A DNA stretch of 21,572 nucleotides, taken from positions 1 through 21,572 of the IMG/VR virus record IMGVR_UViG_3300037882_000904; one strand, given 5' to 3'. This document shows, piece by piece, positions 374-21,572 of this stretch. The position numbers and the translations under genes are program-made. The notes under the pieces are model-generated. The model saw nothing but the letters and a program-made list of their open reading frames with translations, was not told where the DNA came from and searched no databases. The first letter of the stretch is position 1; the number at the start of each line of letters is the position of its first letter. This DNA comes from a virus.

Positions 374-616
374 TCAGCCGGTGCCAGTGGTATCGGGCGC
401 TTGCGGAACGCGACTTGAGCGATTGCTGGCCCATTCTCGGAATCCTCTTGAATGCCGAACGAGCCGCTCGATCTGCCCGGACACGCTCCCAAGAGTCGCG
501 AGGTACTCACGCACATCCGGCGTTAGTGAGACGGAGCCGCAGACGGTCGCAACTCCGTTGATTGGCGGGCGGCCCGCACCGGGGCGACGACCGCCTCGTG
601 ATTTTTGCGTGGTCAT
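374..616 (-). CDS. Small basic RRPGAGRP-motif phage protein
   Basis: The 80-residue protein begins MTTQKSRGGRRPGAGRPPIN. The GGRRPGAGRP motif is common at the N-terminus of small phage proteins, including many small terminases and DNA-binding accessory proteins, and is AT-hook-like. The rest (SLTPDVREYLATLGSVSGQIERLVRHS) looks like a short helical segment similar to ribbon-helix-helix-type phage proteins in which 'VSGQIERLVR' forms the second helix. Its ATG overlaps the stop of the upstream NUMOD4/HNH-like gene as ATGA, which fixes the start and implies translational coupling. A longer frame starting at 781 is rejected because it overlaps that gene heavily. A DNA-binding or regulatory role is plausible but unproven. 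Confidence 0.75.
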   Translation of the reverse strand: MTTQKSRGGRRPGAGRPPINGVATVCGSVSLTPDVREYLATLGSVSGQIERLVRHSRGFREWASNRSSRVPQAPDTTGTG

Positions 617-1164
617 TTTTCGCTCTCGATCATCAGGTTGAGGGCATCGACATCCAGCCTCGTACTCGGCTGGCGGAGTCGCACGCCTTTTTTCGTGAGT
701 CGCTCCACTCTCGACGATACCGCTGCCGACGAAACCCCGAGTCGGTCGGCGCATTCCGCAGATGTCTCTGACGCCTGCCAAGCGCGAACGAACTCGATAT
801 CAGACACACCACTTCGGCTGAGTCGCCACGCCAGATTGTCCGCGTGGCAATTCATTTGGTTGCCGTCAAGGAACTCGATGATCGCTCCACCCGGACGCTC
901 ACCGTGATAGACCTCGCACACGACGCTGGCGAGGTCGATTGACACCCTCGATTTTGCCGGGCCGAGCTTCACTCGCAGTCGCCCAACGCCACGCCTGTTC
1001 CTCTGCATGCGCGGCGATGCGATCAGTGCCGTTGGCTCGCTCCCGGCTTTCGCGGCGATGGTCGAATAGACCTGACCTTCGCGGGTGACGACGTATTCGG
1101 GATGCCCCGGTATTGGTTGGGATTCTGCATTACTAGGCAGGCTAGATTGAATTCTGCGCGTCAT
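613..1164 (-). CDS. NUMOD4/HNH-derived protein with helix-turn-helix; HNH probably inactive
   Basis: Residues 16-35 (PIPGHPEYVVTREGQVYS) match the NUMOD4 motif of homing-type HNH proteins. Residues 60-114 follow the HNH_3 layout: a strand region, VVCEVYHGERPGG, then EFLDGNQMNCHADNLAW. In active members the DGN is preceded by a His (H-x-DGN-x-x-N-x-x-x-x-NL-W); here that position is Phe98, so the first catalytic His is missing. Residues 120-165 (DIEFVRAWQ...SAECADRLGVSSAAVSSRV) form a helix-turn-helix of the kind that often follows these domains in phages. The start has a strong AAGGAG...GGAAC ribosome site and lies about 65 bases below a good minus-strand promoter. The gene leads a small operon. 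I infer a DNA-binding regulator descended from a homing endonuclease. Confidence 0.75.
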   Translation of the reverse strand: MTRRIQSSLPSNAESQPIPGHPEYVVTREGQVYSTIAAKAGSEPTALIASPRMQRNRRGVGRLRVKLGPAKSRVSIDLASVVCEVYHGERPGGAIIEFLDGNQMNCHADNLAWRLSRSGVSDIEFVRAWQASETSAECADRLGVSSAAVSSRVERLTKKGVRLRQPSTRLDVDALNLMIESEK

Positions 1165-1543: not shown

Positions 1544-1555
1544 GTGACTCAGCGG
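1537..1555. terminator. Palindrome containing both convergent stop codons
   Basis: CCGCTGAGT and ACTCAGCGG flank a single central G, giving a 19-bp perfect palindrome. The plus-strand stop (1541-1543) and the minus-strand stop (1549-1551) both lie inside it. Its position between convergent genes suits a bidirectional terminator. There is no clear U-tract on either side, so factor-independent termination is doubtful, and a protein-binding palindrome is possible. Confidence 0.45.
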
Positions 1556-2091
1556 AACGTTGCTTGAGACGCTCCGGATGCGTTTTGGTCGATAGACCAA
1601 AAGAACAAGCAGAGCGACCGTCGGATCGACCTCACGGGGTTGACTCGATGCCATGTTCCCGGAGTGCTAAACATCACCATGCGGTTACGCTTGCTCTGGA
1701 TCGCTTGCAATGTCTCGCCTTTTTCGTTGCAAATCTCAAACTCTCCACCGTCGCAGTCGTCGAGATACAGCACGACAGAAGCCTCTCGCTTCCACGGCAG
1801 CAGCGGATGGCGCTCGGAATCGAGGTGCAGGCCAAGCTGCCCGCCGAAGTCGATCTGGTGCAGTCCGCTGCCGTGCAGGTGGTCCAAGTCGGGGAACGCA
1901 CCGGGAACGTCGAGCAGTGCCATCTGCCCCAACAGCATCCGGGCCGCGTGAGGCAACGTGTTGGCGTTCTTGGTTGCGAGTTTCCCCCACTCGCCATACG
2001 AGTGCCAGTGACCAGATTCTGGTGATGGCCAGTTTGATCTCAGTGACTCAATCAGTCCCGGAGCGGCAAAGTCGTCTTTCACAACGCACAT
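1549..2091 (-). CDS. 2-oxoglutarate/Fe(II)-dependent oxygenase (prolyl-hydroxylase-like)
   Basis: The 180-residue protein carries the jelly-roll oxygenase signature. It has GQLGLHLDSE with the iron ligands His89 and Asp91, then a strand pattern (ASVVLYLDDCDGGEFEI) typical of prolyl-4-hydroxylase-like enzymes. The distal ligand is His148 in GTWHRV, and Arg157 or Arg158 in RRSLCLFFW is placed to bind 2-oxoglutarate. The full catalytic set is present, so it is probably active. Such enzymes hydroxylate protein side chains, nucleobases or small molecules using O2 and 2-oxoglutarate. I chose the ATG at 2091, which overlaps the methyltransferase end by 13 bases; a start at 2154 would lie deep in that gene. 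It is the last gene of the tail-tip cluster, so a substrate in that cluster is likely but inferred. Confidence 0.85.
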   Translation of the reverse strand: MCVVKDDFAAPGLIESLRSNWPSPESGHWHSYGEWGKLATKNANTLPHAARMLLGQMALLDVPGAFPDLDHLHGSGLHQIDFGGQLGLHLDSERHPLLPWKREASVVLYLDDCDGGEFEICNEKGETLQAIQSKRNRMVMFSTPGTWHRVNPVRSIRRSLCLFFWSIDQNASGASQATFR

Positions 2092-2669
2092 GGCTTGATC
2101 CCGCAGATAGTGACGTTCAAAAATGATGTTGCAAGCGGATTCCAGACGGCACACTCACCGTTCGGCGTGATCGTGCATGGCCCATCGTAGCCGCTCGCGA
2201 GGACGTGTAGGCCAGCGTCGAAGCACAGCGAGTTCAGCGCCGGAACGCTGAACCTGTAGTAGTCATGAGGGTATCCGTGAAGCGGGAACGTCTGGTGTGT
2301 TTGGATGTGCAGCACGCCACCCGGTTTCAGGAGTTGACCCATCGCGTACATTGCGACCCAAGGCCGTTCGATGTGTTCGAGAACCGCCGGGCAGAAGATG
2401 CCATCAAAACGTAGATCGGTCGTTTTGTGGAGAGACTGCAAGTCACCAACGATGTCAACGCCATCACCGGATTCGATGTCTGTTGTCGTCCAGTCAGCCC
2501 GCTGGCAATGCTTTCGATGGTCGGTCTGGAACGAACCCGGCCACGGCTTCGCGCCGCACAGCAGGATGCTTGGCCGATTAGGCATCACAGCCAGCCGGAG
2601 CTTCCATTCATCGAGTGGACTCCTCAGTGGTTCCGTGCTGCCCGCCACTGATGGATTTTCGCTTCCCAT
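2079..2669 (-). CDS. SAM-dependent methyltransferase (class I, type-11-like)
   Basis: This is a 196-residue protein. Residues 34-45 (SILLCGAKPWPG) stand where motif I should be but lack the usual GxGxG, which is atypical. Asp64 in TTTDIE suits ribose binding. FDGIFCPAVLEHIERPW (88-104) and LLKPGGVLHIQTH (113-125) are the best class I methyltransferase signatures, followed by PHDYYRFS (134-141), a motif I associate with methyltransferases in glycan and surface-sugar gene clusters. The ATG at 2669 has CGGAG eight bases upstream and overlaps the end of the glycosyltransferase-like gene by 46 bases; a second possible start is at 2585. The overlaps on both sides imply co-translation with the glycosyltransferase-like protein and the oxygenase. 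The substrate cannot be read from sequence; an O- or N-methyl cap on a sugar is one possibility. Confidence 0.8.
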   Translation of the reverse strand: MGSENPSVAGSTEPLRSPLDEWKLRLAVMPNRPSILLCGAKPWPGSFQTDHRKHCQRADWTTTDIESGDGVDIVGDLQSLHKTTDLRFDGIFCPAVLEHIERPWVAMYAMGQLLKPGGVLHIQTHQTFPLHGYPHDYYRFSVPALNSLCFDAGLHVLASGYDGPCTITPNGECAVWNPLATSFLNVTICGIKPCAL

Positions 2670-3823
2670 TTGTTTAGCTCCGATTCTTGATATAGGTCAT
2701 GAACATCATCCCCAAACAGGCATCCCGTTTCGTGAGCGTCGAAGATATTTGCTGGCCACGCTTCGACACTCGCGAAGAATCCCGGCTGCAATCGTCTCCA
2801 GTCGCGATCAAACACGTCTGCGTTGCGGAACCAATAGTTGGTCCCGCTGTAGTGCCACTGGTGATTGCCGACGAACTTAAATGATCCGTATCGCTTGAAT
2901 ACTCCAACCATCGGGAACGATTCCAGTCCGCGACGCACGCTGCCGAAGTCATCCAAGCAAATTTCATACTGCATTGCCGCCCATCGCTTCGTGAGCGATC
3001 CAACGTGATGTCGCACACCCTTGCCGTGTCCGTAATACGTGACGTTGTTTCCGTCGCGTGGCAGAGTTTCCATAAGCTGGAAGAACGTCTGCCCCTCTCT
3101 CAGTGCCGAGTTGTTGGGGAGTTCAATCCAATTGTCAACGCGGACTCCAGACATGTATTCCCGCACGTCGCTAGCCGAGTCTGTCACGCCGTCCGTGACT
3201 ATCGCAATTGAGCGAACTCCGTCGAACAGTTCAATGCGTCGCTTGAGTTCGTCGAGATTCCATTGCCATGATCCGTTGCCGTGCTTCGGCCATAGGTGAT
3301 AGATGAGGTTCCGTGTTGGTTCTTCGGCTTGATGTCTTGCGGTAGCTGGTGATTGCAGCCACTTTCCAGTTGGACACGATTCGGCAGGGAGCTTCGTTTT
3401 TGCTGGCAAATAGCATCCACATTCGTTGCACCTATCGTTGGCGAACAGTGGACACGCACGACAAACAGACATCCGCGATTCAGCCACGGATTCCGGCACT
3501 ACCGCGAATCCGCTGAGTGTCCACCGAGCCAACGCCTTGGCGGCTGTCATTAGATGAGTGACCGTTGGAGTGACCGGCGGAATTGTCGATGGTCTTTTGC
3601 CACAGCATCCGCCGCCTGAGCTTCCTGCTTCGGCTGGTAGGTGCCTTATGCTGATCCCGCTAGACTCCAATGACACATATGTTTTACTGCCCTCATCAAG
3701 AGTCAGCGGCGACATACCCCACTGTTCACGATACTTGTTGACTGTTTCAATCGGCAGGGTTGACTTGCCCTCGCATATCTCCCGTCTGCGACTACCAAAA
3801 GCGAACACTTCGCATTCTTGCAT
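2624..3823 (-). CDS. Zinc-cluster domain fused to glycosyltransferase-like domain
   Basis: This is a 399-residue two-part protein. The N-terminal part has scattered Cys (C4, C17, C73-C74) and then a compact cluster, CRACPLFANDRCNECGC with CPTGKW further on (C121, C124, C132, C135, C137, C150). This Cys pattern is one I associate with small zinc domains of phage tail-region proteins. From about residue 170 the protein changes character: NLIYHLWP, then FDGVRSIAIVTDG, YYGHGKGVRHHVG, HYSGTNYWFRNADVF (324-338) and VEAWPANIFDAHETGCLF. These resemble a family of uncharacterised glycosyltransferase-like proteins with HAKGV and HYSGTFFWFR motifs; this is from memory, with no search run. The start has GGAG seven bases before the ATG and lies three bases after the cysteine-rich gene. 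The zinc part may tether the enzyme to the tail. Confidence 0.65.
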   Translation of the reverse strand: MQECEVFAFGSRRREICEGKSTLPIETVNKYREQWGMSPLTLDEGSKTYVSLESSGISIRHLPAEAGSSGGGCCGKRPSTIPPVTPTVTHLMTAAKALARWTLSGFAVVPESVAESRMSVCRACPLFANDRCNECGCYLPAKTKLPAESCPTGKWLQSPATARHQAEEPTRNLIYHLWPKHGNGSWQWNLDELKRRIELFDGVRSIAIVTDGVTDSASDVREYMSGVRVDNWIELPNNSALREGQTFFQLMETLPRDGNNVTYYGHGKGVRHHVGSLTKRWAAMQYEICLDDFGSVRRGLESFPMVGVFKRYGSFKFVGNHQWHYSGTNYWFRNADVFDRDWRRLQPGFFASVEAWPANIFDAHETGCLFGDDVHDLYQESELNKWEAKIHQWRAARNH

Positions 3824-3826
3824 TTC

Positions 3827-5701
3827 TCACTCCGTTAGCGTGACGCGATATCTGATAGGTCCAACACTGAATGGGTCATATGGTCCCCATGCACAATAAA
3901 CCCAAGGAACTCGTGACTGATCCTTCCAATCGCTCTCCATGAGAAATGGAGTGCATTGTCTATATGGAAGAAAACTAAAGCTAACGTCCTCTGAAGTTTG
4001 ACCCGACGCCTCTATTCGCGTCATCTTAAATAGCTCGGCACTCGAATATGCCCATTCAAGGATGAATGTCCCGCCGCTAGGGAGCGGTGCTGACCCAATG
4101 TAGCCGCACATTAGCGTCGCCGACACCCATCGCTGGTAGTAGTTCAGCGTGACGCTAAGGTTACAATTCGTGATTGTCGTGACAGGATTCCCCGGATCGT
4201 TATACGGGAAAGTGATTGTCGTGCGAATAGCTTCCAAGTCGGCATATAGCACTTTAGGTGGGCCGCCGCATCGCTCAGTGATACAGGGGCCACACACAGA
4301 CTCGCCACAATCTGTTCCGCATCGGTTCGCCCATCCATTTAGCCAATTCTGAAAGAACGGGTACGCCGGGTCGTATGAACTCCTCATGCTAAACGACAAT
4401 TGCGGGCCACATTCTACCATTTCGCTTTTATTCAAAGGCACTGCCATTGTGCCGTTAGCTTGCATCAGACAAACGCTTGAGTCAGTGAGATTCCCCAACG
4501 GCTCGGGACAGTTTCCTTTTGTGAGGCTCAGCGTCAACGGGATCGCTGATGGCGTGCCAGACCCCACCCACTCTTCACCATTCCATGTCATTTTGCCTTG
4601 AACGTGTACACCGTCTATGCTGCCTATCACGCATAGCACTTCCGGTACACACCGGCATTTTCCACAGTATTGGTAGTCGTATCTCTGGCACTGCCCTGCC
4701 GTAATAACTACGTGCCGCCCCATTGTCGATTCAGCGCGCACCCGCAATCCGCAGGTACACGAATCGATTGGTAGCATCCCCGGCCTGATGTCGTTCGGTT
4801 GATACCCATCGAACGTGTTAGGAGGATCTGCCCAATCGTTCGTGGTGTCCCCAGTCTGCTCGAAATCAAGCTCCAGATAGCAGTTCCCATTTGCGTCACT
4901 CCTGAGGTAGATATGCTCTTGGTCTATCCTCGGATCACCACACTCTGGCATGTAGCTCCAGCGATCATTCAGTGCTTCATCCCAAACGAAGAGAACCCCA
5001 TCTAGCGGAACATTCCGCTTTCTTTGTCCATACACGCAGAGCATCTTAGACGCCTTCTCGCAGTTACATTTGACGTAAGGCGGGTACGGGTCTATCGGGA
5101 TAATAGCGTCTTCAGACGGGATTAGTTCCAGTTTCTTGAACGGTATCTTAGCTGCTCGGTATGAATTGAATGTTATTGTACCAACACAGCTATTACCGTC
5201 TGGCGTGACTATAGTTACTCCTTCAATAGCGATTGACGGTGGAGCCAAGCACGTCGTGTTCGTGTGGTCAATTCGATATATCTCATCAAGACCAAGAGAG
5301 CTTGACTTAAATCTCCAAAACGCGGGAATGCCATAGGGGCTTCCTCTGCCGAGCAGAGTGCCGGTATCCAAATCCGTTTCAATAGATAGTGCTAGATCGA
5401 GGTCGCCAAATCTAGCTAAGTAGATGGTGGAGTATATGCTTTGGGTTGTCGCAAATACTGAAGTCGAAAATTCCTTGCAACAGTCTCTTTGCCCATCATC
5501 CGCACGGAACACAAAGCAAATCAGCTTCGGGACACAGCGGCATGGATTGTCTCGGAACAGTGGCCGGTTGTAGCGGCATGGGTCGCAGCAACAACACCAG
5601 TCTGTGATTCCAGTGCGAACCCCTGCATGGTGACTAAGGCATTGAAGGCCACCATTAAAGGAGTCAGGGCCTTCAGACAGTCGGGGTTGACTACGAGGCA
5701 T
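3827..5701 (-). CDS. Cysteine-rich modular tail-tip/fibre candidate
   Basis: This 624-residue protein contains about four related modules, each opened by a Cys cluster and then a hydrophobic strand. They begin near C36 (CCCCDPCRYN...CRCVPKLICFVF), C212 (CNCEKASKMLCVYG), C338 (CQRYDYQYCGKCRCVPEVLCVIG) and C461 (CGTDCGESVCGPC...GPPKVLYADL). Each module also has a Trp-containing strand such as DRWSYMPECG or EEWVGSGTPSA. The rest is rich in Gly, Pro, Thr and Tyr and looks all-beta. The start at 5701 is fixed by GGAGGAAGACT just before the ATG and overlaps the upstream stop by 11 bases. Position after the tape measure and two tail genes, and before modifying enzymes, suggests a tail tip or receptor-binding protein. 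No collagen repeat, chaperone or known receptor-binding domain was recognised. Base composition looks more AT-rich than its neighbours. Confidence 0.6.
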   Translation of the reverse strand: MPRSQPRLSEGPDSFNGGLQCLSHHAGVRTGITDWCCCCDPCRYNRPLFRDNPCRCVPKLICFVFRADDGQRDCCKEFSTSVFATTQSIYSTIYLARFGDLDLALSIETDLDTGTLLGRGSPYGIPAFWRFKSSSLGLDEIYRIDHTNTTCLAPPSIAIEGVTIVTPDGNSCVGTITFNSYRAAKIPFKKLELIPSEDAIIPIDPYPPYVKCNCEKASKMLCVYGQRKRNVPLDGVLFVWDEALNDRWSYMPECGDPRIDQEHIYLRSDANGNCYLELDFEQTGDTTNDWADPPNTFDGYQPNDIRPGMLPIDSCTCGLRVRAESTMGRHVVITAGQCQRYDYQYCGKCRCVPEVLCVIGSIDGVHVQGKMTWNGEEWVGSGTPSAIPLTLSLTKGNCPEPLGNLTDSSVCLMQANGTMAVPLNKSEMVECGPQLSFSMRSSYDPAYPFFQNWLNGWANRCGTDCGESVCGPCITERCGGPPKVLYADLEAIRTTITFPYNDPGNPVTTITNCNLSVTLNYYQRWVSATLMCGYIGSAPLPSGGTFILEWAYSSAELFKMTRIEASGQTSEDVSFSFLPYRQCTPFLMESDWKDQSRVPWVYCAWGPYDPFSVGPIRYRVTLTE

Positions 5702-6155
5702 AGTCTTCCTCCAGACAACACACACCATCGACTGACCAGAAGCAACCGGGAATGTCCACGCCGCATCTCGATAGATTCAGGTCACTCTTCTTACTGAGCG
5801 TCGCCGTTCCCGATAGTTGCATCAAGAGCGTGATTGGCAGATTGAAATAGCAGTACATTGGGTCAAATACGCTTACTTCGTCGCCGACGCTCACTGACGA
5901 AGCATCACAAGAGACTTGCGTCACCACGGCCCTCACATACTCGCAGCCTACCACTCGGAATGCGGAGGTGTAGTAGCCGATTGCAATAACGCGGAACCAA
6001 ATCTTGCCGCCATTGCTGCCGCCACCACTGCCGCCGTGAGCGATGAACCTTCGTCCTGACGGACCTCCCACTATGTTCATCAGTAGGTCATGGTCTTGAC
6101 GCAACTGGTGAATGCTGTCCGCATCTAACGAAAACCCTTCTCCAAGCTCACTCAA
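5691..6155 (-). CDS. Tail-region structural protein, function unknown
   Basis: This is a 154-residue protein with a TTG start, one base after the stop of the upstream gene and preceded by TTGGGGCCATAAA. A short N-terminal helix (IHQLRQDHDLLMNIVGG) is followed by a Gly/Ser linker (HGGSGGGSNGGK) and then a compact, probably all-beta part with VGDEVSVFDPMYCYFNLP and a terminal CFWSVDGVCCLEE. The ...GDEV-V-DP...C-FNLP... pattern recurs, from memory, in tail-cluster proteins that accompany cysteine-rich proteins like the one next to it. It may be a tail-tip or baseplate-like adaptor between the preceding protein and the 624-residue protein. The assignment rests on position only. Confidence 0.6.
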   Translation of the reverse strand: MSELGEGFSLDADSIHQLRQDHDLLMNIVGGPSGRRFIAHGGSGGGSNGGKIWFRVIAIGYYTSAFRVVGCEYVRAVVTQVSCDASSVSVGDEVSVFDPMYCYFNLPITLLMQLSGTATLSKKSDLNLSRCGVDIPGCFWSVDGVCCLEEDYAS

Positions 6156-6156
6156 T

Positions 6157-7194
6157 TTATGGCCCCAAGAATGCGGCGAAGACGCTGAAGTCTTTCCGCT
6201 TGTACGGTGCGATCAGTGAGTAAGTCAAACTGGATTCTGGAATGGCAATTCCGGGAACGCCGATCTCTACGCCAAGGCCGTTCATTGGGACAGGTGTCGT
6301 GACGGATTCTTCGTTCACATCCTTGATGTTCTCCCACTTCGTCCCATTGCGCTTGCGCGTCCCCGTGTCCAGAACCTCAACATCCCACGGCTCCGGGGCT
6401 TCTGTTTCCGTCCCATGCAGGTCTCGCTTTGAGCGAAGCACAATCTCAAAGCTCATCGCGACATAATCGATGCCGTTCTCCTGCTTCGATACAGGCAGGC
6501 TGATCGACCCTAGCTTTGCACAGCCCTTGGGCACTGTCAACGCCGTTCCGTAGAAGTCGATGGTGAACGAGGCGTTGTTGACGGAATCTTCGTAGTCCAC
6601 GATCCACGTCGGGATCGACGCCAAGTTCTTCGACACGACAGCCACCCACTCCGTTGCTGGGTATTCCAAAATTGGCTCAAACGGATCGGACGCGGAGTTC
6701 GTTGGCGACTTCATGTTGAATGTCGGCTCGACTATCGCTGCCGAGTAGTTCTGGTAGTAGTCGCTACGCTTGATCTTTCCACGGAACAAACGCATCACCT
6801 TCTGAGACTTCCAGAAGATCGACGGCTTCCGCATCAGTGGCGTTGTGCCGCGATCACGCTCCTCTTTTGACAGAATCGACTTGTAGCCACAAGTGACGTG
6901 CCAAGCCTTACGCGAGCCGCTCACACGCTGCGGAGAACGCTCCGTGCAATAGACCGTGAACGTGCCGGGGAATGTCGCCCCAAGCGCGGGGATGGCAATG
7001 TTGTTTAGTCCAAAGTTCTCTCCGCACTCGCAGACGTTAGGCACGCCCGGCCCAACGGCGTTCATCACGACGGCCGGTGACTCGTCGATGATATCGCTGA
7101 TGACGAGGAAGACGCGGGTTGCCGTCGCACCATCAGACGCGGTTTCGCTGATGGTCATCTCTTCAAATAGTTCGCGAACGCACATGATCGCCAT
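6157..7194 (-). CDS. Tail protein directly downstream of tape measure, unknown family
   Basis: This 345-residue protein starts three bases after the tape-measure stop, the slot where siphoviruses usually carry the distal tail protein. Recognisable stretches are WHVTCGYKSIL, SPTNSASDPFEP, VVSKNLASIPTW, a central FYGTALTVPKG, GIDYVAMSFEIVLR and ESVTTPVPMNGLG near the C-terminus. Together these look like a conserved phage tail-region family I have met as 'hypothetical', in which an NSAGDPF-like motif precedes a beta-rich body ending in PV-LNG-G. It has no lysozyme or peptidase motif. It could be a distal tail or tail-hub protein; the position is good evidence that it is structural, but the fold is not established. 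Two in-frame ATGs (7194 and 7185) are possible. Confidence 0.6.
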   Translation of the reverse strand: MAIMCVRELFEEMTISETASDGATATRVFLVISDIIDESPAVVMNAVGPGVPNVCECGENFGLNNIAIPALGATFPGTFTVYCTERSPQRVSGSRKAWHVTCGYKSILSKEERDRGTTPLMRKPSIFWKSQKVMRLFRGKIKRSDYYQNYSAAIVEPTFNMKSPTNSASDPFEPILEYPATEWVAVVSKNLASIPTWIVDYEDSVNNASFTIDFYGTALTVPKGCAKLGSISLPVSKQENGIDYVAMSFEIVLRSKRDLHGTETEAPEPWDVEVLDTGTRKRNGTKWENIKDVNEESVTTPVPMNGLGVEIGVPGIAIPESSLTYSLIAPYKRKDFSVFAAFLGP

Positions 7195-7197
7195 AGG

Positions 7198-9399
7198 TCA
7201 AAGCCTCACAGTTCTGTCTTTTTCCTTGCCGATCTTCTTTTCAATTTTCTCCAGCACCTTCAGTTGCTTCTTGTCCGTGTCTTCCACTGACTGTGACCCA
7301 GACAAGGCTTTCGCGATGGCCGATTCAGCCGCTTGCGTACCGACAGACATCGCAGCGGACGACTTGCTGCCGTTGCCTTGCAGGTCGATCTTTTCCTTCA
7401 GTGCGTCTTGCTGATCGGCGTTTTCACGTAGCTCGGCGTCGAGTCGGTCTATTTCTTCCGCTCGTTTTCTTTGGGCGATGCGATTTGATTCGTTTTTTCC
7501 ACGGAGACGGTCCTCTTGCTCTTGCGTAAGAGACCTCTTGGATATCTCCTCGTCTTTTTTCAGGTGCTTGGCGTCAATATCTGCCAGCTTTCTTTGAAGA
7601 TCGCTCGCCGTTTCCATTTCTATTTCAGATGACAATTCAGCCACCTTCTTCTCTTCGGTAGCATTGGCTTCTGATATCCTCTTGTCCCTTAATGCAGTTT
7701 CCCTCTCCAGAAGCGAATCCTTGTCCTTCTGGAGTATTTTCATCTTTTTTATTTTATCGACTTCGATGTCATAAGCCCGATCCGCTTTTTCTTTCGCGGC
7801 CTCTAACTCGGGCTGGTTGTTCTCTTTCGTTGCGTCTAGCTGCCGTGCCCTTACTCTATCTACCTGTTCGATTTGATAGTCTGCAATCTCCTTAGCTTTA
7901 AGCCTTCTCATCTCTGAAATGACTTCCTCAGAACGCGACGTGGCCTCTTCTGCATCGCTGAATGCTTTTTCAGCAGTCTTTGCGCGTTCTTCGGCGAGGT
8001 CGAATTCTTCTTTCGCTCGCTTTGCTTCAGCCTCATCCTGCTTCGCAGACCCCTGTTGTCTTTGCGAAATCCCACCCGGCATACCTATGCCACCACCTAT
8101 TGCTGCTGCTGCGTTGTTCCTCGCCTCGGCATTCGCGTTCTTGAGTTCACGTCTCGCTTCTTCTCGTGCAGCTATTGCGTCACTGAGTTCACGATCCTTG
8201 GCCATTGCGATCTTTTCCTGCTCTAACATCTTCTCCTCTAGCGACTGGATTTCATTCAGCGTTGCCTCGCCTTTTTTATCCTTTGTTACATCCTTCTCCC
8301 TGTCGGATAGCGCCATCAACTTCCCGAGTTGTTCTGCCACTTCCTGCTGCCGCTTACCTGACTCCTTGAGCTTGTCGTTCCACGCATCTTGAGCCTTCTC
8401 AAGTGCCTTCGTGTCGTATAGCCATCGAGCCACCATCGGCACAATCACAGTCGCCAACGAAGCCCCAATCGCGACTGACACACCCACCATCGGGTTGAAT
8501 GACGCTGCCAGTTGTGCCGCGTTGTTGGCGGAACCACGCAGCCCCATCGCCACGCCTTCGATGTTGGTCTTCGCCATTGAGAAGCCGACTGTGAAGTCTT
8601 CAAAGCCGCGTCCGATTTCTTGGATGCGGTTGCCGGTGAGTCCCGCAGAACCAGCCCCGGCAAGATTCCCGCGTTCCGTCTCGACCCTGATGTTTCCCTC
8701 TCGAATGACATCATTCTGTTTATGCAGTTCTGCGGTCTCTGCCTGTGTCAGTCTGGTAGTGGCATTGATGCGTTTTTGGCGTTCGTCGTATTCATGGTTA
8801 ATTCTCTGCATCGTGTCCATGACGCGAACATTGGCACGATTTAAGTCTCCTCGCAATGCCGATATTTCTTTTTGTGCAGCGTCTTCGGCCTTATCACGCG
8901 CGGCCATAATGCGCGAATAAGCATCGATAGCCTCTTTTACTTCACGTTCGTACTGAGCGTCTGCGGCAGCGGCTGCCCGTTGGGATTGGCGTTCTGCATC
9001 TGAAGCAGCCTTATCACGCTCGGCCATAATGCGCGAATAAGCATCGACAGCCTCTTTTACTTCGCGTTCGTACTGAGTGTCTGCGGCAGCGGCTGCCCTA
9101 GCGGCGGCCGCTAACGCCGCTGCTTCTTCCGCTTCAATCGCCTTGATCTTCGACGAAGCAGCTACGAGATTGGATCGCCTTGACTGTTCCTCGCTTTTGA
9201 CATTGAAGAGCGCCGCCGCCTTCTGCTGCTCCAGCCCACCGCCGCTGCCGAGTTCTATGCCGCGTTCAGCACGGAACGATGACATCTTGGACTGCACATC
9301 GCCAAGCGTCTTCATGGCGTCTGTCAGCGATGACGGATCGACATTCATCCCAACCATGAGGCTGAGATCGCTGATACCGCCGGAGGTTGAGCCAGCCAT
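7198..9399 (-). CDS. Tail tape measure protein
   Basis: The 733-residue protein sets tail length and is ejected with DNA. The N-terminus (SLMVGMNVDPSSLTDAMKTL) is typical of tape measures. Residues 80-240 are long Ala/Glu/Arg-rich coiled coil with a 40-residue-period duplication (residues 101-130 and 141-170). GRGFEDFTVGFSMAKTNIEG...LRGSANNAAQLAASFNP (263-303) is a family-typical segment, followed by a hydrophobic span at about 304-328. Residues 335-733 are again coiled coil, very rich in Lys, Glu, Asp and Ala. At the usual rule of about 0.15 nm per residue the tail would be near 110 nm. The start has GGAGG nine bases upstream and follows the GT frame by one base. No peptidase or lysozyme insert is seen. 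Confidence 0.93.
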   Translation of the reverse strand: MAGSTSGGISDLSLMVGMNVDPSSLTDAMKTLGDVQSKMSSFRAERGIELGSGGGLEQQKAAALFNVKSEEQSRRSNLVAASSKIKAIEAEEAAALAAAARAAAAADTQYEREVKEAVDAYSRIMAERDKAASDAERQSQRAAAAADAQYEREVKEAIDAYSRIMAARDKAEDAAQKEISALRGDLNRANVRVMDTMQRINHEYDERQKRINATTRLTQAETAELHKQNDVIREGNIRVETERGNLAGAGSAGLTGNRIQEIGRGFEDFTVGFSMAKTNIEGVAMGLRGSANNAAQLAASFNPMVGVSVAIGASLATVIVPMVARWLYDTKALEKAQDAWNDKLKESGKRQQEVAEQLGKLMALSDREKDVTKDKKGEATLNEIQSLEEKMLEQEKIAMAKDRELSDAIAAREEARRELKNANAEARNNAAAAIGGGIGMPGGISQRQQGSAKQDEAEAKRAKEEFDLAEERAKTAEKAFSDAEEATSRSEEVISEMRRLKAKEIADYQIEQVDRVRARQLDATKENNQPELEAAKEKADRAYDIEVDKIKKMKILQKDKDSLLERETALRDKRISEANATEEKKVAELSSEIEMETASDLQRKLADIDAKHLKKDEEISKRSLTQEQEDRLRGKNESNRIAQRKRAEEIDRLDAELRENADQQDALKEKIDLQGNGSKSSAAMSVGTQAAESAIAKALSGSQSVEDTDKKQLKVLEKIEKKIGKEKDRTVRL
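8889..9098 (-). repeat. Two 90-bp direct copies (120-bp period) in the tape measure gene
   Basis: Bases 8889-8978 and 9009-9098 are near identical, with four differences by eye, and are separated by 30 unrelated bases. They encode two copies of a 30-residue coiled-coil unit (R-AAAAAD-QYEREVKEA-DAYSRIMA-RDK). The spacing keeps the frame. This looks like a recent duplication that changes tail length in 40-residue steps. Confidence 0.9.
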
Positions 9400-9400
9400 G

Positions 9401-9733
9401 TCAGAAGCCTCCAGTCAAAGACGCCAACGAATTCACCATCGCGTTGAACCGCTCTTCCGAGTCTTCATCTTGATCTACCTCTTCGATGTATTTCGGGATG
9501 AAGTCACGCACGGGGATGCTCCGTTTGATATGCGGGTTGATCGCTGACGCCGCCACTGTCGCCGCCTGTAGCCAATCCTGCCCCCAAGGCTCAACTCGAA
9601 AGTATGCCATGCACCTTTCGAGTTGAGAGCTAGGGGTTTCTCGCAGGAACCGGTCAACGTCTATGCCGTAGCCGGTGACGACGCCTCGGGTAATGAGGAA
9701 CCAAGCGAATCGCTCTGTTTCGTCAATTGTGAC
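9401..9733 (-). CDS. GT extension of tail-assembly chaperone, read by -1 frameshift
   Basis: From base 9733 the -1 frame is open for 110 codons with no stop. It reads VTIDETERFAWFLITRGVVT, then GYGIDVDRFLRETPSSQLER, and continues into MAYFRVEPWGQDWLQAATVA to the stop at 9401. The upstream 41 codons look protein-like (ERFAWFL, ETPSSQLER), so the true product is not just the 69 residues beginning at the ATG at 9610. YFRVEPWG...PFIP-like segments are typical of the T half of lambda G/GT-type chaperones. GT binds the tape measure and recruits tube subunits, and is absent from mature tails. The fused product would be about 235 residues (125 from G plus 110). Independent initiation at 9610 is possible but I see no good ribosome site. 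Confidence 0.85.
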   Translation of the reverse strand, partial: VTIDETERFAWFLITRGVVTGYGIDVDRFLRETPSSQLERCMAYFRVEPWGQDWLQAATVAASAINPHIKRSIPVRDFIPKYIEEVDQDEDSEERFNAMVNSLASLTGGF

Positions 9734-10107
9734 TTTTTTTCGGCGTCCAATCGCTGAGCCTTCGTCATGTCCGAAAGCTCATAGATTCTGCCAGCGATGC
9801 GAGCCACGATCTCGGGATGCTTGCGACCCATCATGATCGCCCCGCTGTTCTCATCAGGGAACAACAGGACGCCCTTGTCGTCGATCAAACCCATCGCACA
9901 GCAAAGTGCGTTGAGTCCACCGGGGATCGCAATCCCCTTTTCCCGCAAGTCGCGGGATCGGTCAAATAGGCGTTGTCGCTGGTCGCACATCAACGAACGG
10001 ACACGAACGGTGGGAACCGCTTGTCCTTCCAGTTGATGCTCCGGCAGTTCAACAAACGCCGTGTCGGAGTCGTCCAGCAACAGAAACGCTTCGCGGCTAA
10101 GATTCAT
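9661..10107 (-). CDS. Tail-assembly chaperone, G-type (zero-frame product)
   Basis: The 148-residue protein begins MNLSREAFLLLDDSDTAFVE. It lies between the tail tube and tape-measure genes, the conserved place for the chaperone pair. The fold region (VRVRSLMCDQRQRLFDRSRDLR... HPEIVARIAGRIYELSDMTKAQRLDAEKK) is helical, as in this class. About 24 residues before its own stop it contains the slippery heptamer that gives the longer GT product. Two adjacent ATGs (10110 and 10107) follow GAGGGGA; the second has the better spacing. The start overlaps the stop of the preceding gene by 11 bases. A longer frame from 10140 is unlikely because it runs into that gene. Confidence 0.85.
   Translation of the reverse strand: MNLSREAFLLLDDSDTAFVELPEHQLEGQAVPTVRVRSLMCDQRQRLFDRSRDLREKGIAIPGGLNALCCAMGLIDDKGVLLFPDENSGAIMMGRKHPEIVARIAGRIYELSDMTKAQRLDAEKKSQLTKQSDSLGSSLPEASSPATA
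9733..9739 (-). promoter_or_regulatory. A-AAA-AAG slippery site for programmed -1 ribosomal frameshift
   Basis: On the minus strand the zero frame reads GCC GAA AAA AAG TCA, so the heptamer A AAA AAG is in the exact phase needed for tandem -1 slippage. Re-reading G9733 puts the ribosome in the frame of the GT extension, open for 110 codons. A AAA AAG is among the most efficient known bacterial -1 sites. A stimulatory structure downstream was not assessed. Confidence 0.88.
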
Positions 10108-10312
10108 CATTCCCCTCACTTGGTGTTGTTCCGCAGCCACAATCGGCTGCGGCGTCTATTAGTGCCGAAGGAGGAACCGCCTCGTAGGCCAGCGGTTCCC
10201 AATCCTCGGCGTCCGGGTCCGTCACGGTGTCTGCCTTCGCGTACACCGCGCCGGGATTCGAGATTTGATAGATCGACGTGTGCGCTCTCGCGCGAGCGTG
10301 CATAAGCAGCAT
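10097..10312 (-). CDS. Small acidic protein between tail tube and chaperone
   Basis: This 71-residue protein begins MLLMHARARAHTSIYQISNP and has an acidic, Pro-rich middle (DTVTDPDAEDWEPLAYEAVPP) and two closing Cys in CGCG. The ATG at 10312 is preceded by GAAAGGGATCAAC, a good ribosome site, and the stop overlaps the chaperone start by 11 bases, so it belongs to the tail operon. No family is recognised. It could be a minor tail or accessory protein. Low-complexity ends and short length keep confidence moderate. Confidence 0.6.
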   Translation of the reverse strand: MLLMHARARAHTSIYQISNPGAVYAKADTVTDPDAEDWEPLAYEAVPPSALIDAAADCGCGTTPSEGNDES

Positions 10313-10323
10313 GTTGATCCCTT

Positions 10324-10776
10324 TCAGACTTGAGCGGCGACTGGAGTCGGCTTGCCCGTAACGCGGAACTTGTGCGTCACTGAGATTGGCTTGTCGTTCG
10401 CAAAATCAACGGTTCCACCGAGGTAGATCACCGGATACGCCAAGGTTGCAGCAGCGCTGGCCAACGCCCCGCCGCATGTCGTCGCACGCTTCGGGAAGGT
10501 CACGGTCAACGTGTCGCAAGAAATTGTCTCCAGCAACGAGAAGTAGTTGACCTGAGTCGAATAGCGTGTCGCGACTTCGATCTCGCCCCAGTCAGCGATA
10601 TCGCCCTTGACGAACGTCTTCCCGCCACTGGCGAGGTGAGTTGTCTCGATTGGATCAAGCGTGAAGCCGGTCCACTTGAACATTTCTACTTGGCTGGACC
10701 CGATCAGGGTCGTTGCGCTGGTGAGGGCAATCGTCGCCCCGTAGAACGTACCCACTGTCAGTGTTTGGTCTGCCAT
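10324..10776 (-). CDS. Major tail tube protein
   Basis: This is a 150-residue, strongly beta-type protein starting MADQTLTVGTFYGATIALTS. Its length, composition (Thr, Gly, Val, Ala rich) and order (after the DUF3168-like tail terminator, before the chaperone pair and tape measure) fit the siphovirus tail-tube subunit, which stacks in hexameric rings. ATHLASGG-like and TRYSTQVNYFSLLETISCDTL strands precede a C-terminal ISVTHKFRVTGKP segment of the kind that forms an inner-tube strand. The ribosome site AAAGGATTACGCA is good. No Ig-like extension is visible. Identification is from position and composition. Confidence 0.75.
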   Translation of the reverse strand: MADQTLTVGTFYGATIALTSATTLIGSSQVEMFKWTGFTLDPIETTHLASGGKTFVKGDIADWGEIEVATRYSTQVNYFSLLETISCDTLTVTFPKRATTCGGALASAAATLAYPVIYLGGTVDFANDKPISVTHKFRVTGKPTPVAAQV

Positions 10777-10788
10777 TGCGTAATCCTT

Positions 10789-11262
10789 TCAACAAGAGTG
10801 GAACAGCTTGACTTCGAGAGCTTCACAGTAGAAGTCGATTTCATCACCTAGAGACGGGTCGGTCGAGTTGTCGTATCTGTCGAGCAGTTCGCAGTGATCG
10901 ACAGTGAACGCCCCCCATGACTGCGAGCCGGTTTGGTTCACCTCAACACCAAGTGCCGCGATCACGGCGTCGGCCAGAACACATGCCCGTGTATGCGTTG
11001 CGGCAAAGCAGTAGATTCCCATCGGGGAGACGCGGAAGTTGTCTCCACGCTGAAGTTGCTGAAAGATGTTCTCGCCCTGCGTCTTCTTCATGACGATGTA
11101 GGAGTTGAACAATCCGCCAGACGTGGCCGGTTGACGTATCCCTTCCGGGGCACGCCTCGCGAAGATGCTTGGTTCGAGCTTCGTTGTTCCAACCAAAGAT
11201 ATGACTGCGGGAGTCGCCTTCAGCTTGTCACCGACTGCGGTATAGGGAGCGGCTGTGGTCAT
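10789..11262 (-). CDS. Tail terminator/completion protein (DUF3168-like)
   Basis: This 157-residue protein begins MTTAAPYTAVGDKLKATPAV. DKLKATPAVISLVGTTKLEPSIFARRAPEG is the usual opening of DUF3168/gp17-type tail terminators, where the DLL-P-xx-ALVG stretch and an early PEG occur. The FTVDHCELLDRYDNSTDPSLGDEIDFYCEALEVKLF ending is also in keeping. The protein closes the end of the tail tube and joins it to the head connector. Its ATG overlaps the stop of the gp10-like gene as ATGA, with AAGGGGGGCGTC just before, which fixes the start and rejects the longer frame from 11328. Confidence 0.8.
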   Translation of the reverse strand: MTTAAPYTAVGDKLKATPAVISLVGTTKLEPSIFARRAPEGIRQPATSGGLFNSYIVMKKTQGENIFQQLQRGDNFRVSPMGIYCFAATHTRACVLADAVIAALGVEVNQTGSQSWGAFTVDHCELLDRYDNSTDPSLGDEIDFYCEALEVKLFHSC

Positions 11263-11963
11263 GACGCCCCCCTTGCGAATGCTCTGTCGAGACCGGCTTT
11301 GGTTTCGTTCAACAGGATGTTGCGGCATGTCTCACGCATGGCTGCGTATGCCTTGCCGATGGGTGCGTAGGGCTGCTTGCTCTTGGGAAAGTCGCCTGTA
11401 CTGTGGCCTTCGTCGCCTTTTCTGAATCGTCCACTCTGCTTGCGGAATGGACCTTGAGAAGCCAGTTCCCTACTTCCGGTTGATCTGAGGGAGAACTTCT
11501 GCGTTGGCTCGTACACAGTTCGATGTGAACCGTCTGCTCTTTGCTTAACTGTCCGCTTGCGAATCAATGGCTTCGGAACACGCACGCGACCGCTGGCTGA
11601 TTCGCGTCGAGTCATTCGCGGGCTGGTCAGGAAGTTGCTGCGTTCCATCAGCGTCGCCAGCGGGTTCTGCTTGCTGCGATAGCCGATGATCCCTAGCGTT
11701 GCGCCGAAGTTCCTATACGCCTTGACCTTGAACGCCACGGTGTCCTTGTAGTGACCGCTCACGCCTTCATCGTTGCCGTGCTTTCCTGTTCCGACTGGCA
11801 CATGCTTCTGCATGTTGTCTGCGAACGCTTGCGAAGCCTTCTTGACTGCTCCACGGAATACTCGTTTCTGGACCTTCTCCGTGAACGTCGAGATAAACTG
11901 CTTGAGTTTGTCCTCGGTCTCTTTCGTCATCGCCAGAGTCATGTTCACTTTGAGCTTGGCCAC
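11259..11963 (-). CDS. HK97 gp10-like minor virion protein
   Basis: This 234-residue basic protein begins with a GTG start (residues MAKLKVNMTLAMTKETEDKL). KLKQFISTFTEKVQKRVFRGAVKKASQAFADNMQKHVPVGTG is the hallmark of the HK97 gp10 family, in which an N-terminal helix precedes 'A...vPv-TG-L'. Here a large basic insert (GRVRVPKPLIRKRTVKQRAD..., about residues 120-190) makes it longer than the usual 120-150 residues. The C-terminus PYAPIGKAYAAMRETCRNILLNETKAGLDRA is again family-like. It acts in head-tail joining. The GTG overlaps the upstream stop by one base (TAGTG), with GAGG about 11 bases upstream. The insert may be an extra domain or a lineage feature. Confidence 0.85.
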   Translation of the reverse strand: MAKLKVNMTLAMTKETEDKLKQFISTFTEKVQKRVFRGAVKKASQAFADNMQKHVPVGTGKHGNDEGVSGHYKDTVAFKVKAYRNFGATLGIIGYRSKQNPLATLMERSNFLTSPRMTRRESASGRVRVPKPLIRKRTVKQRADGSHRTVYEPTQKFSLRSTGSRELASQGPFRKQSGRFRKGDEGHSTGDFPKSKQPYAPIGKAYAAMRETCRNILLNETKAGLDRAFARGAS

Positions 11964-12322
11964 TAAACATTGACCTCTTCTATTCCCATAATGACAACTT
12001 CACGTCGTTCGCCGCCGTCGTCATAAACTGAGTCGATCCCAATCACCTTGCCGCAGATCACCAATCTCATTCGAGGAGTGATCGACCTCGTTATCGAATC
12101 GCTCCGAACCCTGTAGATGCCTCTCAGCATCGGAATCGTCGTCATCGCCTGCTGGAACTCGCGTCCGCTTGTCGGCATCTCTGCCACCCGGATTTCCGCG
12201 TACTTCAACCAACCTATTTCTACAGAGTGCATGTCGGCCACTGTCTCAACCGGACATTGAACAACGCACGGCACTCTGTATTTGCCCGCGTCGATTCGCT
12301 TTGTCTTGTATGGCTGTCTCAT
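11963..12322 (-). CDS. Head-closure/head-tail adaptor protein
   Basis: The 119-residue protein starts MRQPYKTKRIDAGKYRVPCV. The opening and overall size fit the SPP1 gp16 / HK97-type head closure (phage head-tail joining) family, in which an N-terminal strand is followed by a small beta-barrel with a segment like FQQAMTTIPMLRGIYRVR and a closing VIGIDSVYDDGGERREVVIMGIE. It sits between the connector and the gp10-like gene, as in related phages. The ATG at 12322 overlaps the stop of the connector gene as ATGA with GGAG nine bases upstream; a start at 12337 is possible but less supported. The call comes mainly from gene order. Confidence 0.75.
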   Translation of the reverse strand: MRQPYKTKRIDAGKYRVPCVVQCPVETVADMHSVEIGWLKYAEIRVAEMPTSGREFQQAMTTIPMLRGIYRVRSDSITRSITPRMRLVICGKVIGIDSVYDDGGERREVVIMGIEEVNV

Positions 12323-12918
12323 CGATATCCGCTCCATCTGATGCGGTCGATAATTGCCCGGTAGTTGGCCATCTGCTCGTCCACCAGAGTTCCCACCGCC
12401 TCACGGCTGATAATGGCTTCCGCTGCCAACAGCCGAATTGCCTGACACGCTCGTTCCGGCACGCTCGACACCCCGCCGTAACCAGCGACAAACGTCACTG
12501 TCACTGAGTTCTCTTGGCATCGCGCCACAGGCCACGCTTGCCCGTATGCCAGTGCGATCCGGCCCGGTTCCGACTGCACGTTTGCGATGTAGTTCGCTGG
12601 AGACCACGTTTGCGTCACGCCAAGCCCATCGACGTATGTGACGCTCGTGACAGACTGAACTGGGCATATCCGCAGTTCGATGGCGTCTGACGGAAAGCGA
12701 TCCATGTGCAACTGCCACGTCTGCGTTATCAACGCCCGTTGCAAGTCCGTCTCGACCATCTCACGCCCGAGCTTCAGATACCGTTCGTAAACCACATCCT
12801 CATCGTTGCAGTCGCCCACCCGTGCGTGCTTCTTCAGCAACGCAATCGTGACCGGCTCTATAGTCGGTTCGACGATGCGAGCGAGGGTCGAGCGGAGGTT
12901 GTGGAATCTATTGTTCAT
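12319..12918 (-). CDS. Head-tail connector (gp6-like)
   Basis: This 199-residue protein is predominantly helical. PVTIALLKKHARVGDCNDEDVVYERYLKLGREMVETDLQRALI matches the usual opening of HK97 gp6 / phiE125 gp8-type connectors. The central WQLHMDRFPSDAIELRICPVQSVTSVTYVD and FVAGYGGVSSVPERACQAIRLLAAEA are also typical of the family ('...P-PV-SV-sI-Y-D...GYG...P-...A...L'). It forms the ring beneath the portal. The start is supported by AAATAAGGCGACG before the ATG. It lies seven bases after the 48-residue gene stop and overlaps the head-closure start. Confidence 0.88.
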   Translation of the reverse strand: MNNRFHNLRSTLARIVEPTIEPVTIALLKKHARVGDCNDEDVVYERYLKLGREMVETDLQRALITQTWQLHMDRFPSDAIELRICPVQSVTSVTYVDGLGVTQTWSPANYIANVQSEPGRIALAYGQAWPVARCQENSVTVTFVAGYGGVSSVPERACQAIRLLAAEAIISREAVGTLVDEQMANYRAIIDRIRWSGYR

Positions 12919-13924: not shown

Positions 13925-15286
13925 TCAGAGTTGGGTCATCTTCTTGACAGGGTTGTCACCAGCGTTGAGCAGGTTGCCATCCGCTTCCATGAACGCGAGG
14001 AACACGTCTTGGTCGTTCTCTCGCGCGCGTTCGGTCAAGCGGTAGAGGCGAATCCCGCCAACTTGGCGAATCTTGTATTGGCTCATCTGGCCAAACAGCA
14101 TCGTAATCTGACCCGTCGAGATCGCGGACGCCATGTCCTGATTGATCGTGTACGGGTAACGGTTCAAGGTGTCTGGAGCGCCGGTGTTGCTACCTTGCTG
14201 CCAGAGGTACTCGCCCGTGCCAGTCTTGAGCTTTCGGAGAGCCTTGAGGATGTTGTCATGGAACATATAGCCGACACCGGGCATCATGCGCCGGCTTGGG
14301 TCAAGCGAGTGTTCCAAGTCGATCACTTCGTCGAACGCGATGGCCGTGGACGACGCGGTGACGTTGCCAGCAGCCGCAGCCACGGTGATACCACGCATCG
14401 TGGCTGCACCGGTTCCGTTCGTGGCCTTGCTGTTCTGGATGCGGCCCAGACGTTGACCCAACATTTCGGACAAGACCGAAGTCAGGTTCACTGCGTTGTC
14501 GCGGAGCAACTCGAATGGGACATAAATCTCATCCGACGTGAACTTGTACGCATTCCAAATCACTTGACCGAACGTCGGATCAAGCGGGGTAACAGGTTGC
14601 CCCTCACCGATCTGACGACCAGTGTTCTGGGTGTCGTTGGCGGTTGGCCATCGCATTGGCTCAGCGCCGTTTGTGCGGATGATTTCCGCGACATTCAGCA
14701 TTCCGCCATAGGCCAGCATGGCCCGTTCAAGGTTGGCCACAAACGTATCGCCATAGGTAAAGCCGCCGCTGCTTCCGTCTTGCGACGATAGAGCGTTGCG
14801 TACCTGCGAGAAATCGTTGTGGAGGGGGATTTTGCAGCTAGAGCGGTTGTTCAGCGAGAACCCGCAAGCTGCTGCAGCTTGTCGATGTTCGTCCGTGACA
14901 TTACCAACATCAGACGGGTCATGACCCATCCGCATCCAGCCCTGCAATGCAAGAGCATGGTTAGCGACGCCGCCATTACCCTTCGGGCCACCATCAAGGC
15001 TGGAGCCGTCACGGCCGAATTGAGGACGCTTCGAGTTGGCGACGAACGGCTTGTAGCCGCTGATCTCTTCCAGTCGCTGGCGACGATTGTCGTCCTCGGC
15101 GGCAGACGCTTCAACAGCAGTCCGCTCGGTCGTGAGGAGGGTCAGGTTGTCATCGTATTCGGCGTTGATGACATCCCAAGTCGCCTTGTCTTCCGCTCCC
15201 CAATTCTCCGACGTATCGGCGAGGTTCTTGATGCGGGTGGCGAGGTCGTCACGCTTAGCTTGCAGTTCGTCTAGTCGCGCTGTCAT
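13925..15286 (-). CDS. Major capsid protein, HK97 fold with coiled-coil delta domain
   Basis: The 453-residue precursor starts MTARLDELQAKRDDLATRIK. Residues 1-75 are a charged coiled coil, the scaffold-like delta domain removed by the prohead protease. The body has typical HK97-like stretches: GFSLNNRSS, TYGDTFVANLERAMLAYGGMLNVAEIIRTNGAEPMRWPTANDT, GQVIWNAYKFTSDEIYVPFELLRDNAVNLTSVLSEMLGQRLGRIQN, GVGYMFHDNILKALRKL, a VNRY-like PYTINQDMASA stretch and QMSQYKIRQVGGIRLYRLTERARENDQDVFLAFMEADG. This order is characteristic of the family. The ATG at 15286 has GAAGGAAACGAC in front; the longer frame from 15421 would translate the leader hairpin and is rejected. It has its own promoter and is followed by a hairpin, in keeping with high output. 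The cleavage point was not determined; a lower-complexity stretch near residues 85-105 is a candidate. Confidence 0.94.
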   Translation of the reverse strand: MTARLDELQAKRDDLATRIKNLADTSENWGAEDKATWDVINAEYDDNLTLLTTERTAVEASAAEDDNRRQRLEEISGYKPFVANSKRPQFGRDGSSLDGGPKGNGGVANHALALQGWMRMGHDPSDVGNVTDEHRQAAAACGFSLNNRSSCKIPLHNDFSQVRNALSSQDGSSGGFTYGDTFVANLERAMLAYGGMLNVAEIIRTNGAEPMRWPTANDTQNTGRQIGEGQPVTPLDPTFGQVIWNAYKFTSDEIYVPFELLRDNAVNLTSVLSEMLGQRLGRIQNSKATNGTGAATMRGITVAAAAGNVTASSTAIAFDEVIDLEHSLDPSRRMMPGVGYMFHDNILKALRKLKTGTGEYLWQQGSNTGAPDTLNRYPYTINQDMASAISTGQITMLFGQMSQYKIRQVGGIRLYRLTERARENDQDVFLAFMEADGNLLNAGDNPVKKMTQL

Positions 15287-15319
15287 GTCGTTTCCTTCGT
15301 GGCTAGTGTCGCCATGCGG

Positions 15320-15385
15320 GAAACGACAAACGGTCGCTCCGCTAGCAACAAGTTTTGAGACCTGATGAACGCGGAGCGACCGTTT
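15320..15385 (-). promoter_or_regulatory. Leader hairpin in the capsid 5' UTR, 15-bp perfect stem
   Basis: Arms 15328-15342 and 15371-15385 are perfectly complementary over 15 bases and enclose a 28-base loop. On the minus strand the stem is followed by GTTTGTCGTTTC (15331-15320). It lies between the predicted promoter and the capsid ribosome site, ending about 40 bases before the ATG. It may be an attenuator, or a 5' stem that stabilises the message. Confidence 0.6.
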
Positions 15386-15456
15386 ATAGAATCGGTTGCT
15401 TGCTGTTCGGCTTCGCGACAATCAATGTCGCTCGGCCAATCGGTTATGTGGGCGAG

Positions 15457-16213: not shown

Positions 16214-16223
16214 GGCTTCTCTT

Positions 16224-19880: not shown

Positions 19881-19897
19881 GCTTGCCTGCACCAATG

Positions 19898-19911
19898 TCA
19901 ACAATTGTTGA
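19898..19911. repeat. 14-bp perfect palindrome upstream of large terminase
   Basis: TCAACAATTGTTGA lies 18 bases before the chosen large terminase start, in the 98-base gap between the terminase genes. The length and perfection suit an operator or recognition site; function is not shown. TTGACA follows on the minus strand, but any -10 at normal spacing would be inside the coding region. Confidence 0.45.
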
Positions 19912-19946
19912 GATTGCGATGGAATAGCCTTGTTTTGTAGAGTCTG

Positions 19947-21488: not shown

Positions 21489-21510
21489 AGACGCATCCCC
21501 CTGTGTCGCC

Positions 21511-21538: not shown

Positions 21539-21572
21539 TGAATTCGATTGATTGCTAAAGTTTTTTCAACCC

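Follow-up and report, generated by a model that had tools for sequence, protein, structure and literature searches.

A candidate tail-tip modification cassette with a predicted GT-A-fold glycosyltransferase in a siphophage of a planctomycete-like host

The IMG/VR virus record IMGVR_UViG_3300037882_000904 (positions 1 to 21,572; "the window" below means this whole stretch of DNA) carries three enzyme genes directly behind the gene for a cysteine-rich tail protein. We propose that the virus is a siphophage of a planctomycete-like host and that the four genes are a cassette, probably serving to hydroxylate, glycosylate and O-methylate its receptor-binding tail tip. The products are called TIP (the cysteine-rich tail protein), GT (the GT protein), MT (the methyltransferase) and OX (the oxygenase), and L-numbers denote related loci or contigs. 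The gene set is not a product of chance, as it recurs in many diverged phages.

All four genes lie on the minus strand. TIP (3827-5701, ATG at 5701), the tail-tip or receptor-binding candidate and proposed substrate, has 624 residues, 37 of them cysteines. After a gap of 3 bp follows GT (2624-3823, 399 residues), composed of an N-terminal module, a zinc ribbon and a domain with a predicted GT-A fold. GT overlaps MT (2079-2669, 196 residues), a class I S-adenosylmethionine (SAM)-dependent methyltransferase, by 46 bp. MT in turn overlaps OX (1549-2091, ATG at 2091, 180 residues), a prolyl-hydroxylase-like 2-oxoglutarate (2OG)-Fe(II) oxygenase, by 13 bp. A first-pass annotation had described three overlapping enzyme genes directly after a 624-residue cysteine-rich protein, and the open reading frames bear this out. 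A longer OX frame starting at GTG 2154 is unsupported by the starts of the homologues.

Linkage of the enzyme genes to a cysteine-rich tail gene

The recurring order in the relatives is tape measure, two tail genes, cysteine-rich protein and GT, followed by MT and OX in either order. The order TIP-GT-MT-OX, as in the window, is found in L012, L013, L014, L022 and L042, and the order TIP-GT-OX-MT in L019, L028 and L124. L022, whose TIP is 38% identical to that of the window, has an intact methyltransferase. GT is thus a phage glycosyltransferase gene encoded with structural genes, 3 bp behind TIP in the window and in the same arrangement in many relatives.

OX is present in 25 of 91 GT loci, always 45-1190 nt downstream of GT and in the same orientation; the 1.34 Mb covered contain OX at no other place. 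A scan from OX returned the known loci and two more: L124, which has the full set with OX 23 nt from GT, and L120, which has OX at its start, the upstream part being cut off. Counting the window and L124, GT and OX occur together in 24 distinct contigs; MT is also found in 19, and 14 have a cysteine-rich gene with GT, MT and OX. Removal of near-identical copies left 87 GT domains. OX lies within 2 kb of 18 of the 35 domains with a cysteine-rich gene upstream versus 10 of the 52 without one (Fisher p = 0.0023, a value that ignores shared ancestry). The tight coupling of enzymes to a tail-tip gene, as claimed in the first-pass annotation, is therefore strongly supported: homologues of all three enzymes stand beside a cysteine-rich tail gene in other phages.

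The GT protein: fold, family and N-terminal module

The catalytic domain of GT comprises residues 170-385 (2669-3316, minus strand). The C-terminal half has no family in Pfam, PHROGs or NCBIfam, and a PDB sequence search with GT gave nothing meaningful. Scans of IMG/VR with GT and OX as single proteins gave no matches. With tblastn against phage records, the GT query returned the zinc ribbon only and nothing for the GT half, and the OX query returned weak oxygenases. The family was opened by a DNA pattern for WH[YF]xGTxxW, which led to 118 viral relatives, 80 of which were kept, and to six relatives in genome assemblies, of which five belong to Planctomycetota and one to Omnitrophota. The HYSGTNYWFR segment singled out in the first-pass annotation sits in the most conserved part of this family (WHYSGTNYW, residues 323-331). 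Across 68 sequences, residues E243, W281, G307, G327 and E354 are invariant, and H266, K268 and G269 are nearly so.

AlphaFold2 modelling with the 68 sequences predicts a GT-A fold, with most blocks of the C-terminal half at 94-98 in the predicted local distance difference test (pLDDT) and the lowest at 78-83. In Foldseek comparisons against the PDB, the model matched ArnC, GlcAT-S/P, dolichyl-phosphate mannose synthase and GtrB (E 1.6e-5 to 2e-4, with modest TM-scores), and also IspD and GlmU, nucleotidyltransferases of related fold. Among viral models, several phage proteins matched at TM 0.71-0.73, as did giant-virus glycosyltransferases. M1IF74 (BFVD), a structural match of the window's GT, has 638 residues, the length of PBCV-1 A064R, and may be an A064R orthologue. 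Some relatives are fused to GT2 domains (L009, L032 and L054) and others to methyltransferase domains (L031, L036, L037 and L043, with L031 and L036 below the Pfam cut-off); no GT-OX fusion was seen among the relatives. These several lines of evidence identify the C-terminal half as a glycosyltransferase with a predicted GT-A fold, in keeping with the first-pass description of it as glycosyltransferase-like.

The canonical DxD after the fourth strand is not present in GT; a conserved HxKG (266-269) stands in its place. Some GT-A enzymes need no metal, and the replacement suggests that GT may be one of them. The H-x-K and GT.FW motifs had raised the idea that the family is RgpF. This idea was rejected: none of the 68 alignment members matches a Pfam GT model, those for RgpF (PF05045) and Glycos_transf_2 included. 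RgpF is also absent from 59 genomes of the phylum.

Upstream of the catalytic domain, GT has two further parts. The N-terminal module (residues 1-40, GSRRREICEG...TVNKYREQWG; 3704-3823, minus strand) is proposed to dock on TIP. The zinc ribbon (residues 110-155; 3359-3496, minus strand) matches PF19668 (DUF6171, 8e-7) and, over residues 108-155, phrog_13558 (4.5e-15).

The N-terminal module occurs on relatives of the window's GT, and it persists where the catalytic domain has been exchanged. A scan from TIP returned four phages, and TIP homologues 35-50% identical to that of the window are found in L022, L027, L113 and L115. In L113, the TIP is 50% identical to the window's, and the next gene starts with the N-module of the window's GT (41% identity over 107 residues). 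There, the module is joined to a Mannosyl_trans3 domain (PF11051, 4.7e-38) instead of a window-type GT domain, and downstream of the gene come a mannose-6-phosphate isomerase-type cupin and two methyltransferases. A recognised glycosyltransferase unrelated to the window's GT domain thus occupies its position, while the module stays constant and the tail tip is a related one. In L027, a similar N-terminal stretch with a cysteine-containing helical domain is a separate small gene. In L011, the locus of which has the same kind of cysteine-rich tail gene, a radical SAM/SPASM protein (10671-11738) directly follows GT, so that the slot seems to be taken there by another kind of peptide-tailoring enzyme. 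The domain swap in L113, the separate module gene in L027 and the radical SAM slot in L011 would all be consistent with a docking role of the module, by which tailoring enzymes are recruited to the tip.

Two further observations concern domain architecture. In L113, the N-module occurs once more, this time attached to a zinc ribbon (11633-12643, minus strand), and is encoded on the strand opposite to the tail operon. The GT proteins of L030 (8489-10693) and L032 (8498-10870) have at their N-terminus a TubC_N docking domain, of a kind familiar in peptide synthetases; next come a GT2-like domain and the new GT domain, and OX lies downstream of both genes.

The zinc ribbon is also found alone. 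In the cyanophage S-SRM01 (L095, 40318-48602), its neighbours are a flavin-dependent halogenase and a gp37-gp38 adhesin tip gene, a group that could be another tail-adhesin tailoring set; in the cyanophage S-CBS2, it lies beside a tail fibre. In the cyanophage S-SSM7 (L105, 193223-203417), 4 nt separate the ribbon gene from a 2OG-Fe(II) oxygenase gene that follows it, and nucleotide-sugar epimerases are encoded downstream. In other myophages it is found in unrelated small-gene regions. These contexts loosely support a role of the ribbon with tail adhesins and tailoring enzymes.

Methyltransferase, oxygenase, tail tip and surrounding genes

MT was recognised in the first-pass annotation by its LEHI and KPGG stretches, which lie at residues 97 and 115. 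The assignment is upheld by Pfam, as MT matches PF08241 (4.1e-6, 27.8 bits versus a cut-off of 21.2).

The HxD...H...R signature read in OX in the first-pass annotation is equally well founded. OX matches PF13640 (7e-14), and the iron ligands H89 and D91 (1819-1827, minus strand), the distal iron ligand H148 and the 2OG-binding R157 (both within 1621-1650, minus strand) are invariant in 19 relatives. The top match of the OX profile in the PDB is 9blq, a putative hydroxylase (1.3e-12); a literature search on this entry gave no match. Further matches include prolyl 3-hydroxylase 1 (P3H1), OGFOD1, prolyl 4-hydroxylase, the HIF prolyl hydroxylases and EGLN1/Egl nine, with PKHD-type enzymes among them. 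Our best guess from these matches is that OX is a protein hydroxylase, most likely a prolyl hydroxylase. The family is not new by itself, since oxygenases of the prolyl hydroxylase domain (PHD)-like kind are common in marine phages (PMC12774648).

The TIPs have a cysteine-rich start in common, and 12 aligned TIPs share a C-terminal C-x-P ... E motif. No collagen repeats are present in TIP. In L012, L013, L014 and L042, the first ~260 residues are ~70-77% identical (with an insertion in L014), whereas the last 120-170 residues are unrelated. The neighbouring enzymes of these four loci are still alignable, at 37-80% identity for GT, 58-97% for MT and 70-88% for OX. A constant N-terminus with a variable C-terminus is the pattern that would be expected of a receptor-binding protein. 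The insertion in the L014 TIP (1042-2955) is an FGE-sulfatase/C-type-lectin-type domain (PF03781, 7.6e-32). Domains of this type occur in known targets of diversity-generating retroelements; a diversity-generating reverse transcriptase near the C-type-lectin-bearing TIP was not found in the contig fragments examined.

The surrounding genes, on the minus strand of the 21.6-kb window, make up the structural module of an HK97-type siphophage. It comprises an HNH gene (20409-21539), TerL (18048-19949), the portal (16224-17894), a ClpP-type protease (15491-16399) and the capsid (13925-15421), after which come head-tail genes and a tail assembly chaperone match (9661-10140). The next gene (7198-9399) is a tape measure candidate by its position after the chaperone match, and its product has 733 residues and no cysteine. 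It is followed by a 345-residue tail gene (6157-7194), a candidate distal tail protein whose position is conserved in the relatives. The small conserved tail gene that comes next (5691-6155) has homologues directly upstream of TIP in several relatives. Directly after the cassette, 613-1164 (minus strand) encodes an HNH-type protein with a helix-turn-helix-like C-terminus, probably a homing endonuclease.

The proposed pathway, its alternatives and its precedents

We suggest that the four genes form a tail-tip maturation cassette, as follows. The cysteine-rich TIP would be the receptor-binding tip, and OX would hydroxylate residues of TIP, most likely prolines. GT would reach the tip through its N-terminal module, its zinc ribbon or both, and attach a sugar. 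The sugar may be a 6-deoxy-hexose such as rhamnose, a guess taken from A064R of PBCV-1, and MT would O-methylate it. The resulting glycan would change how the tip binds or how stable it is, or conceal it from host defences or receptor decoys. The substrate, the modified residue, the sugar, the order of steps, the chemistry and the biological role are here read from the genes alone. We are more reserved about a fully specified version, which seems possible rather than probable: a PHD-type hydroxylase makes hydroxyproline on the tip, the new GT-A family glycosylates it, MT caps the product, and the N-terminal docking module allows unrelated GT catalytic domains to be exchanged on one and the same substrate.

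Several results weigh against the proposal. The predicted structure of TIP is unreliable (pLDDT 44), so that its tail-tip role rests on position and modularity. In the aligned TIPs, no residue tracks the presence of OX, and the invariant Pro585 is also present in the TIPs of phages with no detected OX, e.g., L036 and L050. The glycine-rich SAM-binding motif I of MT is degenerate in the window (ILLCGAKPWPGS), where the relatives keep LEIGGG in the same place. OX is not obligatory, since 17 of the 35 non-redundant GT domains with an upstream cysteine-rich gene have no OX within 2 kb, some of the contigs ending there. Finally, all OX-linked GTs except one fragment fall in a single clade of the GT tree, and common descent therefore accounts for some of the linkage.

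Serotype conversion is a familiar example of phages encoding enzymes that modify glycans on the host surface. The enzymes might likewise act on host surface glycans or proteins, for receptor masking or superinfection exclusion, in which case their place in the tail operon would serve late expression alone. The lipid-linked glycosyltransferases ArnC and GtrB among the PDB matches of GT would agree with this, as would the S-SSM7 ribbon, close to an oxygenase and nucleotide-sugar epimerases. However, the GT model is without long C-terminal membrane helices, and the cassette stands directly behind the cysteine-rich tail gene in many diverged phages, with genes that often overlap. Because the enzymes track the tail-tip gene, and because the N-module is kept beside a related TIP when the catalytic domain is a different one, we consider a host-surface target unlikely.

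A somewhat more doubtful explanation is that the enzymes do not work as a single pathway on a single protein: OX and MT could tailor a sugar or nucleotide-sugar, or OX could modify another protein. The absence of OX from many GT loci and the presence of MTs of at least two types speak for separate roles, and the MT-GT domain fusions, unmatched by any with OX, tie MT to the sugar. Yet protein prolyl hydroxylases rank high in the OX profile search, and OX is strictly a neighbour of GT.

Two other explanations are very improbable. An oxygenase with a glycosyltransferase recalls the logic of phage DNA hypermodification, as in phages of the TET/5-hydroxymethylcytosine type, but OX matches only PF13640 in Pfam-A and not TET/JBP, MT is not of a DNA methyltransferase family, and the genes lie beside the tail tip rather than replication genes. 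Equally remote is a chance set of hitch-hiking moron genes with no joint function: morons are frequent in phage late operons and a single GT clade accounts for much of the linkage, but the arrangement holds down to ~30% GT identity despite order changes, and swapped GT domains and alternative enzymes, such as the radical SAM protein, occupy the same place.

The proposed tip-modification pathway has partial parallels elsewhere. In Dictyostelium, Skp1 is modified by a prolyl hydroxylase and then by a hydroxyproline N-acetylglucosamine-transferase. The likeness lies in PHD-type hydroxylation followed by O-glycosylation of hydroxyproline; Skp1, however, is a cytoplasmic eukaryotic protein, and its glycosyltransferase is from another family. 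Egl nine, HIF-PHD and OGFOD1 are among the solved structures that best match the OX profile, and this similarity is remote only.

Mimivirus L230 is a bifunctional lysyl hydroxylase/glucosyltransferase that hydroxylates lysines of collagen-like proteins and adds glucose (PMC9614988). As proposed for the cassette, a virus-encoded 2OG oxygenase and glycosyltransferase carry out hydroxylation and then glycosylation of a viral protein. L230, however, is one fused protein of a eukaryotic giant virus that acts on collagen-like lysines, whereas the window has separate genes, a cysteine-rich non-collagen protein and a prolyl-hydroxylase-like oxygenase in a tailed phage. A064R of PBCV-1 combines a pair of rhamnosyltransferase domains with a methyltransferase domain; for domain 2, as for the window's GT, no homology to known glycosyltransferases could be recognised (PMC9614988). 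A064R and A061L resemble the proposed cassette in directing glycosyltransferase and methyltransferase to the same viral glycan (PMC9614988); the PBCV-1 glycans differ in being N-glycans of an algal-virus capsid protein, with no oxygenase. Mycobacteriophages glycosylate their own capsid and tail-tube proteins by phage glycosyltransferases (Freeman et al. 2023, Cell Host Microbe, as cited in PMC12619734). As far as that citation conveys, the likeness is in phage-encoded glycosyltransferases acting on phage structural proteins, and the difference is that the C-termini of capsid and tail-tube proteins, not the tail tip, are modified.

In none of these three cases, L230, A064R or the mycobacteriophage enzymes, are an oxygenase, a glycosyltransferase and a methyltransferase brought together at the tail tip of a phage. 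To our knowledge, mycobacteriophage virion glycosylation has no linked oxygenase or methyltransferase. Searches of the literature on planctomycete phage tail glycosylation, and on phage tails with a hydroxylase, glycosylated virion proteins and an oxygenase, gave no match. The first-pass annotation knew of no described system of this kind. For phages this holds in the searched literature, which covers few subscription papers; more broadly it does not, as the giant viruses offer close functional precedents (PMC9614988).

If the proposal is true, phages make hydroxylated, glycosylated and methylated attachment proteins with enzymes of their own, and the giant-virus logic extends to bacterial viruses. 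The findings point to a glycosyltransferase family not described before, which has over 100 members in viruses, and to a modular retargeting of glycosyltransferases onto one substrate. They also offer a testable link between these enzymes and cysteine-rich, variable tail tips in phages of poorly studied planctomycete-like hosts.

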